From Bacteroidales bacterium (GTDB lineage Bacteria; Bacteroidota; Bacteroidia; Bacteroidales; UBA932), in NCBI GenBank assembly GCA_016281315.1, contig JAEEIJ010000058.1, positions 1 through 64,000 of the forward strand: a stretch of DNA of 64,000 bases, given 5' to 3'. A program made the position numbers and the translations under genes. Positions 5,372 through 50,392 of this stretch are shown here, in pieces. The notes beneath the pieces were generated by a model. It did no database searches and was not told the DNA's origin. It saw nothing but the letters and a program-made list of their open reading frames with translations. The stretch's first letter is position 1. Every line of letters starts with the position of its first letter.

Positions 5372-6288
5372 TGCGAAAAATACCTTTCATATTGTTGTTC
5401 CTGGCCGCCTGCACGCGTACGGAGCCGGATTCTTCTCATTATTGCCTAAATAGTACGTTCATCCTGCTTTCTTCCTATGGGCCCGAAACGCGTGCGGCGG
5501 TCCCGGACGAAACAGCAATCAAAGATTTTAATCTCCTGGTATTCAATGCTTACGGGGAGCTGGAGGAGCACGTCTTCGTCCCGGAGCGGGAACTCCACGG
5601 GGGCGTTCCCCGCTGCACCTTGCTATTAATGAAAGACGTCCCATACACCTTCATCGCCACGGCCAATACAGGCTACAAACTGCCCGTCACGAGCCTGGAG
5701 GAGGCGCGCTCTTTCCGCTACCACCTGGCCTACCCGGACGAATACGGCCCCGGCATCCCGATGGCCGTCGTCCGGGAAGACGCCAGGGCCGGCACGCAGG
5801 TGGAACTGCGCCTGGAGCGCCTGATGACCCGGCTGGACCTCCAGACCGACCGCCGGGCGCTCTCGGAGGGCGTTTTCATCAAAGTGACGGAGGTGGAAGT
5901 GGAAGCCTGCCCCAGCTGGGTGTCGCTCTTTCCCTCCAGCCGGCCCCTGAGCCGGGCCGATGTCTTCCCGCGCGGCCTCGTCTTACGCGGCAGCGACGTG
6001 GACCCGCTGAACCGGGAGGAAGAAGGGACGGGCATGAGCGGCCTCGTGAGTCTCTACGTGCTGGAAAACTGCCAGGGTGACGAGCCTTTTGCCGGCGTCA
6101 CCACCCGCATCACGGTAAAGGCGGAATACCATTCACCGGACTTCGACACCGAAGCCGGCGAAACGCTCTCCTACCGCTTCTATCCACGGGAAGAGCGCTA
6201 CGACCTGGAACGGAATACCGTGTACCCGGTAGTGTTGAAATGGGAAGGAGAAGGACTCCCTACAGAAGCGTCTTCAGGCACTTTTTGA
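5371..6288 (+). CDS. FimB/Mfa2 family (DUF1812-like) lipoprotein
   Basis: Signal MRKIPFILLFLAAC; INDFNLLVFNAYGELEEHVF-type pattern; TGATG overlap with preceding gene. Confidence 0.6.
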   Translation: MRKIPFILLFLAACTRTEPDSSHYCLNSTFILLSSYGPETRAAVPDETAIKDFNLLVFNAYGELEEHVFVPERELHGGVPRCTLLLMKDVPYTFIATANTGYKLPVTSLEEARSFRYHLAYPDEYGPGIPMAVVREDARAGTQVELRLERLMTRLDLQTDRRALSEGVFIKVTEVEVEACPSWVSLFPSSRPLSRADVFPRGLVLRGSDVDPLNREEEGTGMSGLVSLYVLENCQGDEPFAGVTTRITVKAEYHSPDFDTEAGETLSYRFYPREERYDLERNTVYPVVLKWEGEGLPTEASSGTF

Positions 6289-7246
6289 GGGAATCCGTCC
6301 AGTAAGGGATGGAAATCCCCAGCGCCGCCTTGATCTTGGTCTTGTCGAGGACGGAATAGGCAGGCCGATGCACCTTCGACGGAAACTCGTCGCTGTGGCA
6401 AGGCACAATCTCGCAGGAAGTATGCCCCGCATACTGGGCGATGATCCGAGCAAAATCGTACCAAGAACAAACTCCTTCATTGCTGAAATGGAAGATAGCG
6501 CCGGAGACGGAGGGCGAGGCCCCCGAGGGAACATCGGCCTTCTTTTCAGTGACCGAGGGGGCATCCCCTTCGGATCCGGCGATTTCCAAAAACCGAACTA
6601 TCACCTCCGCCAAATCGCCGGCATAGGTAGGCGTTCCCACCTGGTCGAAAACGACCTTGAGGGACGGCTTTGAGGCCGTGAGAGAGAGCATCGTCTTGAC
6701 GAAATTCTTGCCGTATTCGCTGTAGAGCCAGGACGTCCGGATGATGATGTGCCGGCAGCCCACGCGCTGAATGGCCTCTTCCCCGTGCAGTTTGGTGCGG
6801 CCATACGCCCCGATGGGCGTTCCCTTCATCTCCTCCCGGCAGGGCGTGTTGTACGCCTCCCCGCCGAAGACATAGTCCGTGGAAATGTGCACCAGCAGAC
6901 CGCCAACCTCCTTCATCGCCACCGCAAGGTTCTCCACCGCCTTGGCATTCAGCAATTCCGCCAGCTCCTCATTGTCCTCCGCCGCCTCCACATTCGTATA
7001 CGCCGCACAGTTCACGATGGCCTCAATCCCCTCCTTCCGGACCATCTCCCGAATGGCGGCCATATCCGTGATATCCAGATATTCAGCCCCAGGAGTCACA
7101 TCCGTGAAGACAGCGGAGGAGGGCGACGCCCCTGAGGGAGCATCGGCCTTCTTTTCAGTGACCGAGGGGGTCGTCCCCTCTGCCGACAGAAGTGCCTTTA
7201 AAGAAAGGCCAAGTTGGCCGTTGGCACCGGTAACCAAGACTTTCAT
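6260..7246 (-). CDS. rfbD: dTDP-4-dehydrorhamnose reductase, with two in-frame repeat insertions
   Basis: GANGQLG, NCAAYTNVEAAE, STDYVF motifs; next to rfbC and rfbA. Confidence 0.92.
   Translation of the reverse strand: MKVLVTGANGQLGLSLKALLSAEGTTPSVTEKKADAPSGASPSSAVFTDVTPGAEYLDITDMAAIREMVRKEGIEAIVNCAAYTNVEAAEDNEELAELLNAKAVENLAVAMKEVGGLLVHISTDYVFGGEAYNTPCREEMKGTPIGAYGRTKLHGEEAIQRVGCRHIIIRTSWLYSEYGKNFVKTMLSLTASKPSLKVVFDQVGTPTYAGDLAEVIVRFLEIAGSEGDAPSVTEKKADVPSGASPSVSGAIFHFSNEGVCSWYDFARIIAQYAGHTSCEIVPCHSDEFPSKVHRPAYSVLDKTKIKAALGISIPYWTDSLKKCLKTLL
6497..6562. repeat. Copy 2 of about 63-bp palindromic element inside rfbD
   Basis: Coding strand GGGGATGCCCCCTCGGTCACTGAAAAGAAGGCCGATGTTCCCTCGGGGGCCTCGCCCTCC; encodes GDAPSVTEKKADVPSGASPS. 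Confidence 0.85.
7117..7182. repeat. Copy 1 of about 63-bp palindromic element inside rfbD
   Basis: Coding strand GGGGACGACCCCCTCGGTCACTGAAAAGAAGGCCGATGCTCCCTCAGGGGCGTCGCCCTCC; encodes GTTPSVTEKKADAPSGASPS. Confidence 0.85.
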
Positions 7247-19060: not shown

Positions 19061-20170
19061 TCAGATTTTGAATTTACGCTGGGATTGATAAATGAGGTAG
19101 CCGCTCCTGTCCGCGCTGCACTCGATGCGCCGGAGCACCGGGTCGGTGACTTCCGCCGCCACAATTTCCTGGTAGTCCCGCCAGCGTTCGATGACGGGAA
19201 GAAGCCGCTTGGTCTCTTCGCAGAGGAAGTACACGCCGGAGCAGTTCCGATCCAGCAGGACCGGTTCCGTAAACTGCCCCAGGGCCACTTCTATCACGCC
19301 TTTCAGGAAGTCGTAGCCCGTGGAAAGCCGCACCAGGTCCGAGCCGATGAAGTCTCCGCCCATCCGGGCGCCCACCTCGATGACGCGGATGTCGCCGTCC
19401 GGGGAGATCTTCAGTTCGGCGTGCGAGGCGCCGTATCGGATATGAAGCGCATCCAGAGCCTTCAACACGATAACCTTCACCCTTTCCTGCGTTTCCGCCG
19501 GCAGGGTGGACGGCTGGTGGTGCTCCAGCTCCACGAAGAAAGGCGACTCGGTGGTCACCTTGTCCGTCAGCTGAAGGATGTGGTGCTTCCCTTCAAAGGA
19601 GATGGTTTCCACGCTAATTTCCCGGCCCTGGACGAACTCCTCCACAATGGCCTTTTTCTGGAAAGAGGCCTTGCAGGCGCGCAAGACGGCGCTTTCCAGT
19701 TCCTCCGGGCGTTCCACCTTCTCCACTCCCAGGCTGCCGGAGCGGTCCGTGGGCTTGACGATGAGCGGATAGCAGAAGGAGGGCACGTCGGCGCTTCCGT
19801 CCGTGAGAAAGAAGCCCGGGGAAGGCACGCCGGCCTCCCGGAAGCACTGCCGCATCAGGTATTTGTTCGTCACCGTCGGCGAATAGCAGTCCGGATTGCC
19901 GACAAGGCCCATCTTTTCGGCCACATAGTTCACTGTGAGGACGGCCACGTCCGAAGCGATAGTGGTGACCCCGTCCACCTGCAGTTCCCGGCAGATGCGG
20001 AGGATTTCTTCTTTATCGACGGTGGAAACGGGGAAGAAACGGTTGGCCACGCCTTTGCAGACGGCGCCCTCCTCCCAGGCGAAACAGATGCTCTCCACCC
20101 CCATCTCCCGGGCTTTCTTCACCAGGGGGAGCTGGAGGTAACTGGCACCTATGACCGCGAGTTTCTTCAC
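19061..20170 (-). CDS. ATP-grasp domain ligase
   Basis: [43 protein letters not shown]. Confidence 0.88.
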
Positions 20171-30514: not shown

Positions 30515-30917
30515 AGAAGAAATAGAAAGCGGCCCACTTCAGGGGAATCCCTTTTGCATAGCCGATCGTATGGTAGTTGGAATCCTGGATGGTTCCGTCA
30601 CTCTTGACGTAGCCTATGGTGTGGTAATTGGAGTCCTGGATCCTTCCGTCGTCCTTCACATAACCCACAGTGCGGTAGTTGGCGTCCTGAACCCTTTCAT
30701 CGTCCCTTAGATAGCCGATGGTGTGGTAGTTGCCATCCTGTACGCGGCCGTCGCTCTTGATGTATCCGATGGTGTGGTAATTGGAATCCTGGATGGTTCC
30801 GTCGCTCTTGATATAACCCACGGTCCGGTAACCGGAATCGGTGATTTGCTGGGCGAAAATATCCTGTGCCATAGCGAGGCCGAACAAAAGGGTAAGGAGT
30901 GTAAAGAATCGTTTCAT
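30504..30917 (-). CDS. Secreted tandem-repeat protein (17-aa repeat, about 6 units)
   Basis: Signal peptide MKRFFTLLTLLFGLAMAQDIFA, then repeats of IQDSNYHTIGYIKSDGT. Confidence 0.75.
   Translation of the reverse strand: MKRFFTLLTLLFGLAMAQDIFAQQITDSGYRTVGYIKSDGTIQDSNYHTIGYIKSDGRVQDGNYHTIGYLRDDERVQDANYRTVGYVKDDGRIQDSNYHTIGYVKSDGTIQDSNYHTIGYAKGIPLKWAAFYFFFKK
30555..30845. repeat. 51-bp tandem DNA repeats encoding the 17-aa protein repeat
   Basis: Recurring tggtgtggtaattggaatcctggat...ccgtcgctcttgatgta. Confidence 0.85.
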
Positions 30918-48886: not shown

Positions 48887-50392
48887 TTATTGCGCTACTC
48901 TACAGATTATCAGAAAATTATCCGCCACGGCCTTGGTGCCGAAGATGTGGATGGGACCGCCGTCTTTTACGCCCAGCTTTTTGCGGAGTTCCTCGCTGGT
49001 GAGCGGGATGTTCCGGGCCGTGACGTCGGCCTGTGGATAACGCGCGGCGACGTCCTTGAGGCTGCGCTTGTTCAGCGGGACCGTTTCCAGAATCTCAAAG
49101 GTTTTTCCGAAGGGTTTCAACGCCTCCGGAACATCACCTATGTATAAATGCGTGTGCCTTTCCAATTTCTCAAGGCCATATTGACAGGGCAGTTCGAACG
49201 CCCCCGCTTTCAGCATCGCCTTCCCCGGTTCGAATAAAGACACCCCGTGGCCGATGTCCCCACCGTCCTCTGCGGAAAGGTCACTTCCACCGAATCGGCG
49301 TTGTGGGCTCCCCACGGACACCCTGGACCTGGTCCAGCCGGTTTTTGGACCAGGTTCAATTCCATCCCCTGGACCTGGTCCACGACCTATGCATCCCAGA
49401 GGGGTCTGTTCAACACTGCCTGGACCTGGTCCGGCACATTCTGTCGAACCTGGTCCAGATTCGCCCTGGACCTGGTCCAGCAGCAGGCTCGCTCCATCTT
49501 CAAAAATGGTAATGGCACAGTGCCCGGCATAGCCTTTCTCCAGGAGGAGGAGCAACTCCTTGCACTCCCCTTCCGCGGCGACCACGTGCACTTCGCGAAC
49601 GCATCCCAACTGTTTACAAACCAACGAGATATCCGCCATCGGGCTCAGTTTCAGCAGTAGCAGCGGGCAGGAATCCAGCAATTCCGGAAGCAGCTGCAGC
49701 ACGTCCGGGGAGCAGTCTTCCAGCCGGAAGACCTTGCGGCCGTCGGAGGCGCGCCGCGCCGGGTCCAGGAAAATGAAATCCGGCTTGAAGCCATCCAACA
49801 CCTCAGTGACATTCCCGGGATGCAGTTCGCGGCAGCGAACCGCCACATTCCGGCATCCCAGAGCGGAGAAATTATGCCGGGCCGCATCGGCCAGAGCAGG
49901 TTGCAGTTCGTTATACAGGACATCCGCAAACACCTGCGCAAACGCCCAGCTGTCCACCCCCAGCCCACCGGTTAAATCGGCCATACGGAGCTCGGGGCCC
50001 GGCGTTACGAATTTTCCGCCATTTTCTCGTAATGGGACGTCCTCGGGGACCTCGCAATACGACTCTGGGGCCGTTTTTTCGTAATGGGACGTCCCAAGGG
50101 CCGAAGCGGCCGCCAAGGCCACCGAGGCCTTGTACCGCGCAGTGGCTTCCGAAGAACACTGCTCCCCGGAAAGCCGCAGCGGGTACACCAGCGAAGGCAC
50201 AGCGTACCACGCAGGCACTTTTGTGCGCAGTTTCCGCCGCACCTCCAGCGTGCTCAGTGCCAGATCAAAAGGGGCTGTCCCCGCCGCAAAACCATCCGGC
50301 AAGACTACCACGGACGCATAGCGGGAACGCGCCAGCGCCAGCGCCGCCGGGTCGTCCAGCGAATGGGCCAATATGAATTCCGCAAAATCCAT
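48887..50392 (-). CDS. Class I SAM-dependent methyltransferase with THUMP-like C-terminus, carrying two repeat insertions
   Basis: MADLTGGLGVDSWAFAQVF; DFIFLDPARR; LSPMADISLVCKQL; IPLTSEELRKKLGVKDGG..HIFGTK. Confidence 0.85.
   Translation of the reverse strand: MDFAEFILAHSLDDPAALALARSRYASVVVLPDGFAAGTAPFDLALSTLEVRRKLRTKVPAWYAVPSLVYPLRLSGEQCSSEATARYKASVALAAASALGTSHYEKTAPESYCEVPEDVPLRENGGKFVTPGPELRMADLTGGLGVDSWAFAQVFADVLYNELQPALADAARHNFSALGCRNVAVRCRELHPGNVTEVLDGFKPDFIFLDPARRASDGRKVFRLEDCSPDVLQLLPELLDSCPLLLLKLSPMADISLVCKQLGCVREVHVVAAEGECKELLLLLEKGYAGHCAITIFEDGASLLLDQVQGESGPGSTECAGPGPGSVEQTPLGCIGRGPGPGDGIEPGPKTGWTRSRVSVGSPQRRFGGSDLSAEDGGDIGHGVSLFEPGKAMLKAGAFELPCQYGLEKLERHTHLYIGDVPEALKPFGKTFEILETVPLNKRSLKDVAARYPQADVTARNIPLTSEELRKKLGVKDGGPIHIFGTKAVADNFLIICRVAQ
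49323..49480. repeat. Cluster of six 15-nt odd palindromes (CTGGACCTGGTCCAG type) inside the methyltransferase gene
   Basis: Copies at 49323, 49345, 49369, 49420, 49444, 49466; spacers 7-9-36-9-7. Confidence 0.9.
49990..50095. repeat. Tandem pair of 52-bp hairpin units inside the methyltransferase gene (family C)
   Basis: TCGTAATGGGACGTCC at 50027 and 50079, read in two different frames. Confidence 0.85.

Follow-up and report, generated by a model that had tools for sequence, protein, structure and literature searches.

Two nearly identical stretches of coding sequence lie within one gene of a Bacteroidales genome, rmlD (rfbD), and they raise the question of what such blocks are and how they came to be part of the enzyme. 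An earlier note on this DNA had read them as in-frame elements like the Rickettsia palindromic elements (RPEs), duplicated inside the gene. To our knowledge, in-frame palindromic elements have so far been described mainly from Rickettsia. In the following, the window is the whole 64-kb stretch of DNA that was analyzed (64,000 nucleotides).

The rmlD Gene Hosts Two In-Frame Hairpin Inserts

The host gene (6260..7246, minus strand) encodes a dTDP-4-dehydrorhamnose reductase of 328 codons that matches the Pfam family RmlD_sub_bind (PF04321) with E=2.6e-89 and has 1vl0 and 3sc6 as relatives in the PDB. The two blocks (6509-6561 and 7118-7170) are 94% alike over 53 nt with a spacing of 609 bp, and within the open reading frame both translate as PSVTEKKAD(A/V)PSGASPS, just as the earlier note had described them. 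Each lies within a hairpin element on the minus strand. The C-terminal copy (6501..6580) carries the arms GCCGGATCCGAAGGGGATGCCCC and GGGGGCCTCGCCCTCCGTCTCCGGC and a conserved loop at 6525..6556. The N-terminal copy (7110..7189) has a degraded stem; its conserved loop, TCGGTCACTGAAAAGAAGGCCGATGCTCCCTC (7134..7165), is the core common to about 30 copies. Arm pairing scored 13.5 for the C-terminal and 8.0 for the N-terminal copy, which is among the more worn. A blind perfect-seed hairpin scan of the window returned one terminator-like palindrome that is unrelated to the inserts; the rmlD stems were missed because they are too degraded.

Comparison with orthologues revealed that both inserts are directly seen to be absent from relatives: the RmlD proteins of seven congeners lack them, and so do the solved RmlD structures. 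In the case of 1vl0, query residues 22-53 align with chain residues 34-43 and query residues 221-251 with chain residues 209-215. An AlphaFold model of the product (mean pLDDT 76) places the inserts at residues 23-41 and 228-245, both with pLDDT<50, between H11-21 and E44-47 and between H209-225 and E250-254. Both inserts are therefore modeled as low-confidence, disordered surface loops between core elements, in agreement with the earlier placement of the palindromic inserts in surface loops.

Two further repeats were noted in the window. A 51-bp tandem repeat with at least five copies (30558-30881) is coding on the minus strand and yields repeats of about 17 residues, YHTIGYIKSDGTIQDSN. At 49994-50094, two 49-nt direct copies that are 76% alike lie 52 bp apart and end in TTTTYTCGTAATGGGACGTCC.

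The Inserts Belong to a Genome-Wide Family

A genome-wide search for further copies had been proposed as a way to refute the first reading. It recovered about 33 places at E<=2e-4 in this 2.1 Mb genome of 97 contigs, here called family A. Together with the match of one rmlD copy to the other (E=3e-18), this shows that the blocks are not chance similarities. With open reading frames taken as genes, 28 of 31 inspected copies were located inside genes, all 28 in two complementary reading registers: 21 read PSV(A/T)EKKAD(A/V)PSG, and seven read EGASAFFSATEG, the opposite strand in the same codon phase. Three copies (L005, L025, L026) have no identified gene. Hosts named by Pfam include RmlD, FolC (twice), MetRS/MetG, an M16 peptidase, aspartokinase-homoserine dehydrogenase, LigA, DnaX, UvrD, PolA, Fmt, FtsK (twice, one copy degraded), BCCP, AtpB, LplA, alpha-2-macroglobulin, CysS, Lnt, CitG, DnaG and others. 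A repeat family placed in frame within the genes of unrelated proteins, as RPEs are, is thus directly established. By simple listing, replication and repair genes are frequent among the hosts. Empty orthologues were also found for FolC, MurE, TyrA, FolP, a transporter, IleS and CitG.

Since the copies are part of a genome-wide family, the proposal of a local duplication within rmlD had to be abandoned. An assembly artefact was ruled out as well, because separately named assemblies share these loops (L067, RUG12971; L070, RGIG7856; L072, a red deer MAG). Among 84,980 GTDB genomes the A pattern gave four Bacteroidales hits. Three are true copies with arms, located in genes (L067 in MurE, L070 and L072 in Fmt), and the fourth is chance-like. 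No Rickettsia genome in this set matched the A core as an exact pattern, a comparison made with the core alone, and the suggestion of a family independent of Rickettsia holds in this respect. Rfam 15 returned nothing above the gathering score for the elements, only sub-threshold chance hits. The family A loop had no match among phage, plasmid and viral-contig records and the family B loop (see below) none among phage and viral-contig records, hence there is no sign of a phage vehicle. We found no description of such elements in Bacteroidales in the open-licence literature.

In several species (L002, L072, L106, L119) of the genus, an LptF/LptG permease and methionyl-tRNA formyltransferase are encoded by a single open frame of about 850 codons, which may represent a conserved gene fusion.

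The Loop Is Conserved and the Stem Is Specific to Each Copy

The conserved part of the elements is the loop, which comprises about 32 nt in family A (TCGGTCRCTGAAAAGAAGGCCGATGYTCCCTC) and 38 nt in a second family, B (TCCGCGTCGCTTCGCGACCCTGTCCGGGCAAATGCTCC), found at orthologous sites in relatives. Except for a few worn ones, all family A copies fold as long hairpins. Stems of 15-25 bp differ between copies and are paired within each copy, and their length clusters at 21-24 bp (31/50). When the arms of the 31 family A copies of this genome were compared by gapped alignment with the reverse complement of other arms, the mean score was 13.8 within a copy vs 6.5 between copies, and none of 2000 permutations reached the observed mean. 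When only the outer 30 nt were scored, which lie more than 11 bp away from the loop, the values were still 8.5 within vs 5.2 between copies.

Family B allowed a finer view of the stem. Pairing amounts to 84-100% over 21 bp, apart from one position at 82%, drops to 44% at bp 22 and is near background by bp 25. In 38 B hairpins, 96.6% of stem cells were paired, compared to 39-52% in slid-partner controls. All 21 stem pairs had changed on both sides, with 261 double-change cells, and one-sided (G-U) changes were found in 4 of about 800 stem cells. Two-sided changes, nearly free of G-T intermediates, indicate that one arm was copied from the other as DNA, and the near absence of G-U intermediates disfavors simple RNA-level selection on the stem. 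Nine B copies of one genome (G295) have identical 38-nt loops and left arms that are 54% alike (27% expected), and are 96% paired within each copy; as these were drawn from zero-mismatch hits, the loop identity is partly ascertained, while the arm contrast is unaffected. Copy-specific Watson-Crick stems are therefore a direct observation.

In a screen of 400 genomes of the genus with an A 25-mer and a B 33-mer (each with <=3 mismatches), family A was present in 14 and family B in 43 genomes; reversed-pattern controls were all zero. Loops cluster by genome, and species-specific loop families are directly documented. Two observations concern the B loop itself. On its minus strand (alignment columns 30-42) an inner mini-hairpin contains GCGAAGC, an unusually stable DNA hairpin, which is kept in several genomes while the neighboring pair shifts from C-G to T-A. 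In addition, this genome has a family-B-like loop (L292, G000:C54, about 19565-19641) with an extra stretch nested within.

Stems Contain Host Codons and Loops Occur in Both Orientations

We compared filled and empty sites across related genomes. All genomes compared seem to be metagenome assemblies, and the nearest empty sites share about 90% protein identity with the filled ones, so that the comparisons are not between near-identical strains. In RsmH, the invariant GPAVFDG directly follows the insert. Its GPAV codons are GGC CCC GCC in G019 and GGA CCT GCC in G295, and the 5' arms, GGCGGGGCC and GCAGGTCC, respectively, are complementary to them. In FolP, the filled site (GGGAGGCCTTT, insert, CCGGAG) can be set against the empty site (CGGGAGGCTTTC CCGGAG): the empty allele reads CGG GAG GCT TTC CCG GAG, whereas the filled allele reads AGG GAG GCC TTT, followed by 60 nt (last third GGAAAAGGCCTCCCCTCTG) and CCG GAG. 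At its end, the insert reads as the host flank in reverse complement. Host codons are thus observed directly in the stems, and the RsmH and FolP comparisons together imply that the host arm varies by site and that the other arm is its inverted copy. Net insert lengths were about 51-75 nt, and no consistent direct target-site duplication was seen at the empty sites compared. The cleanest filled/empty pair is ileS in G204 vs G313/G208 (57 bp), although the state in G313 and G208 may be a deletion remnant and not the pre-insertion state. What appear to be remnants consisting of the stem alone were seen in IleS (G313 and G208) and in TruA (G019).

Loop flips were likewise observed directly. At the tyrA site, the same stem encloses the loop in one orientation in G208, G204 and G313 and in the other in G406 (L235 vs L216/L227/L242). 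The same site and stem with an inverted loop were also found in M16 (L218 vs L224) and in one more gene (L221 vs L232/L241). The frame is kept in both orientations.

Depending on the species, identical sites in Fmt, M16, DnaX, PolA, AtpB, CitG, CysS and IleS hold either an A or a B loop. Other repeats were encountered at such sites. A different species of the genus (G149; L279, L284, L285, L286) has tandem arrays of CGTC-REP-like repeats, GATGCCCGGTCAAGCCGGGCATGACGG, at the same gene sites. This genome also contains a third in-frame repeat family with the core CCCTATACTTGTCCGGGGGTGGACAAGCCC, family F, in about 12 copies (L366-L379, e.g., G000:C57:11296-11347 and G000:C70:239441) at sites in TyrA, TruA, TruB, MurE and FolP; the copy in TyrA forms a perfect hairpin, and other copies have a longer shared arm. 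The presence of such unrelated in-frame repeats at the same sites points to permissive loops.

Discussion

The two inserts in rmlD are best read as small in-frame palindromic mobile elements that act like RPEs or intragenic REPs without being members of either group. We consider it probable that they are small, non-coding and non-autonomous hairpin insertion elements with a mobile loop and arms copied from the target flank. The conserved loop would insert at a new site, and at or after insertion the new strand would fold back and copy its own flank by template switching, giving a stem of ~21 bp. One arm would then be a reverse-complement copy of the DNA adjacent to the loop, host codons included, and the stem would not be a fixed terminal repeat. 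The same process could later invert the loop between the arms, and selection would then remove all copies but those that preserve the frame, carry no stop and lie in flexible surface loops. Fold-back or template-switch synthesis on the flanking target DNA appears to be the source of the arms, and the copying itself is strongly supported. Furthermore, we infer that the loop is the mobile unit and that insertion is the step at which the arms arise, with either a trans-acting enzyme or a replication error as the driver.

Template switching between inverted-repeat arms is known to homogenize arms and to invert spacers (PMC8604942, PMC8794818), and would explain both the flips and the lasting complementarity. 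The elements display the corresponding marks, namely arm homogenization, multi-base Watson-Crick compensatory changes and spacer inversion, and share with template-switch palindromes the maintenance of identical arms and the flipped spacer in coding DNA. In contrast to those, a conserved spacer of 32-38 nt recurs here at dozens of sites in one genome. Identical loops with different stems are not explained by template switching alone, which favors insertion of the loop together with copying, by fold-back, of about 21 nt of the flank. Against this, the resemblance of the G295 left arms implies that the stem sequences are not fully random. The loop may carry part of its stem along, or the similarity may reflect a target or codon preference.

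This consensus, weak as it is, fits a course that we regard as rather unlikely, in which the element brings its own conserved stem, as an RPE or a MITE would, and later template switching keeps the arms complementary and extends the palindrome into the host, so that stems only look target-derived. Such arm homogenization and spacer flipping are documented (PMC8604942, PMC8794818), and the M16 stems of G208/G313 and G406 are alike in their inner bases and unlike in their outer bases, each being self-complementary. However, the G295 stems are only 54% alike despite loops whose identity is partly ascertained, many changes fall in the stem and none in the loop, and stem lengths cluster narrowly. 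Terminal inverted repeats common to copies, as in MITEs, were not found, since the arms differ.

That A and B loops share sites in different species and cluster by genome could also mean that ancestral hairpins at fixed sites had their loops overwritten in each genome by gene conversion, with no fresh insertion. We judge this improbable, because empty orthologues are common and because CGTC-REP-like and family F repeats at the same sites speak for permissive sites.

Mobilization of REP-like elements by a Y1/RAYT-type transposase appears more doubtful still. Y1_Tnp proteins of 300-350 aa exist in the genus, in G149 the shared host sites hold true CGTC-tagged REP-like repeats, and intragenic REPs are known in replication and repair genes (PMC3733652). 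Yet families A and B have neither a terminal GTAG or CGTC tag nor a conserved stem, Y1_Tnp is found in carriers (13/14) and non-carriers (10/14) alike, and the 1.5-kb surroundings of the two Y1_Tnp genes inspected in carriers (L383, L384) contain no A, B or F loop; our search revealed no mobilizing enzyme. A functional peptide linker or RNA structure maintained by selection is very improbable: strong loop conservation, hydrophilic peptides and two inner mini-hairpins in B, one with a compensatory change, would suit it, but either orientation occurs in unrelated proteins and gives unrelated peptides (EKKAD vs SAFFSATE), as happens between sister species even at a single site, the stems change by Watson-Crick pairs with hardly any G-U steps, and most of the genus lacks the element.

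With insertion of a mobile loop and copying of its flank as the preferred reading, the elements can be set beside known systems. RPE families are defined by conserved palindromes, and their inserts are longer than the inserts of about 60 nt found here. Both are small palindromic repeats located in frame in surface regions of many housekeeping proteins. The earlier comparison stands for the in-frame palindromic inserts; it is not supported where it would make them simply another RPE family, as here the loop is conserved and the stem is site-specific and covarying, and the family A core was matched by exact pattern in this genus only. REP families, too, are defined by conserved palindromes, most with conserved stems of 6-13 bp and loops of 2-5 nt, and CGTC-type REPs are reported in Bacteroidetes (PMC3733652). 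Intragenic GTAG/CGTC REPs resemble our elements as short stem-loops inside open reading frames, often of replication or repair genes (PMC3733652), whereas copy alignment and listing gave no terminal tag beside a conserved 6-13 bp stem here, the stems being about 21 bp long and not conserved. Coding palindromes in Nematomorpha mitochondria are likewise inverted repeats in functional genes that are long, perfect and unique to their site, with both arms coding, although neither a shared mobile loop nor insertion is described there (PMC6649704). Intragenic invertons share loop inversion between inverted repeats within genes; unlike them, our elements gave no evidence of a recombinase site or phase variation, and the frame-keeping inversion looks incidental.

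The copy number, the copy-specific stems, the loop inversion and the sister families in related genomes go beyond the earlier note. We tentatively raise the possibility that this is mobile DNA of a separate kind, a loop of 32-38 nt alone, lacking its own terminal repeats, that makes a new and perfectly matched stem of ~21 bp at each site by inverted copying of the flank, so that each copy has a target-derived inverted repeat. If the arms are made from the target, inverted repeats would be products and not parts of the inserted element. Several loop families share gene sites in many related genomes, and with filled, empty, flipped and stem-only alleles available across them, the insertion mechanism can be read by comparison. 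For the bacteria that carry them, these elements steadily supply essential enzymes with new loops of 20 residues.
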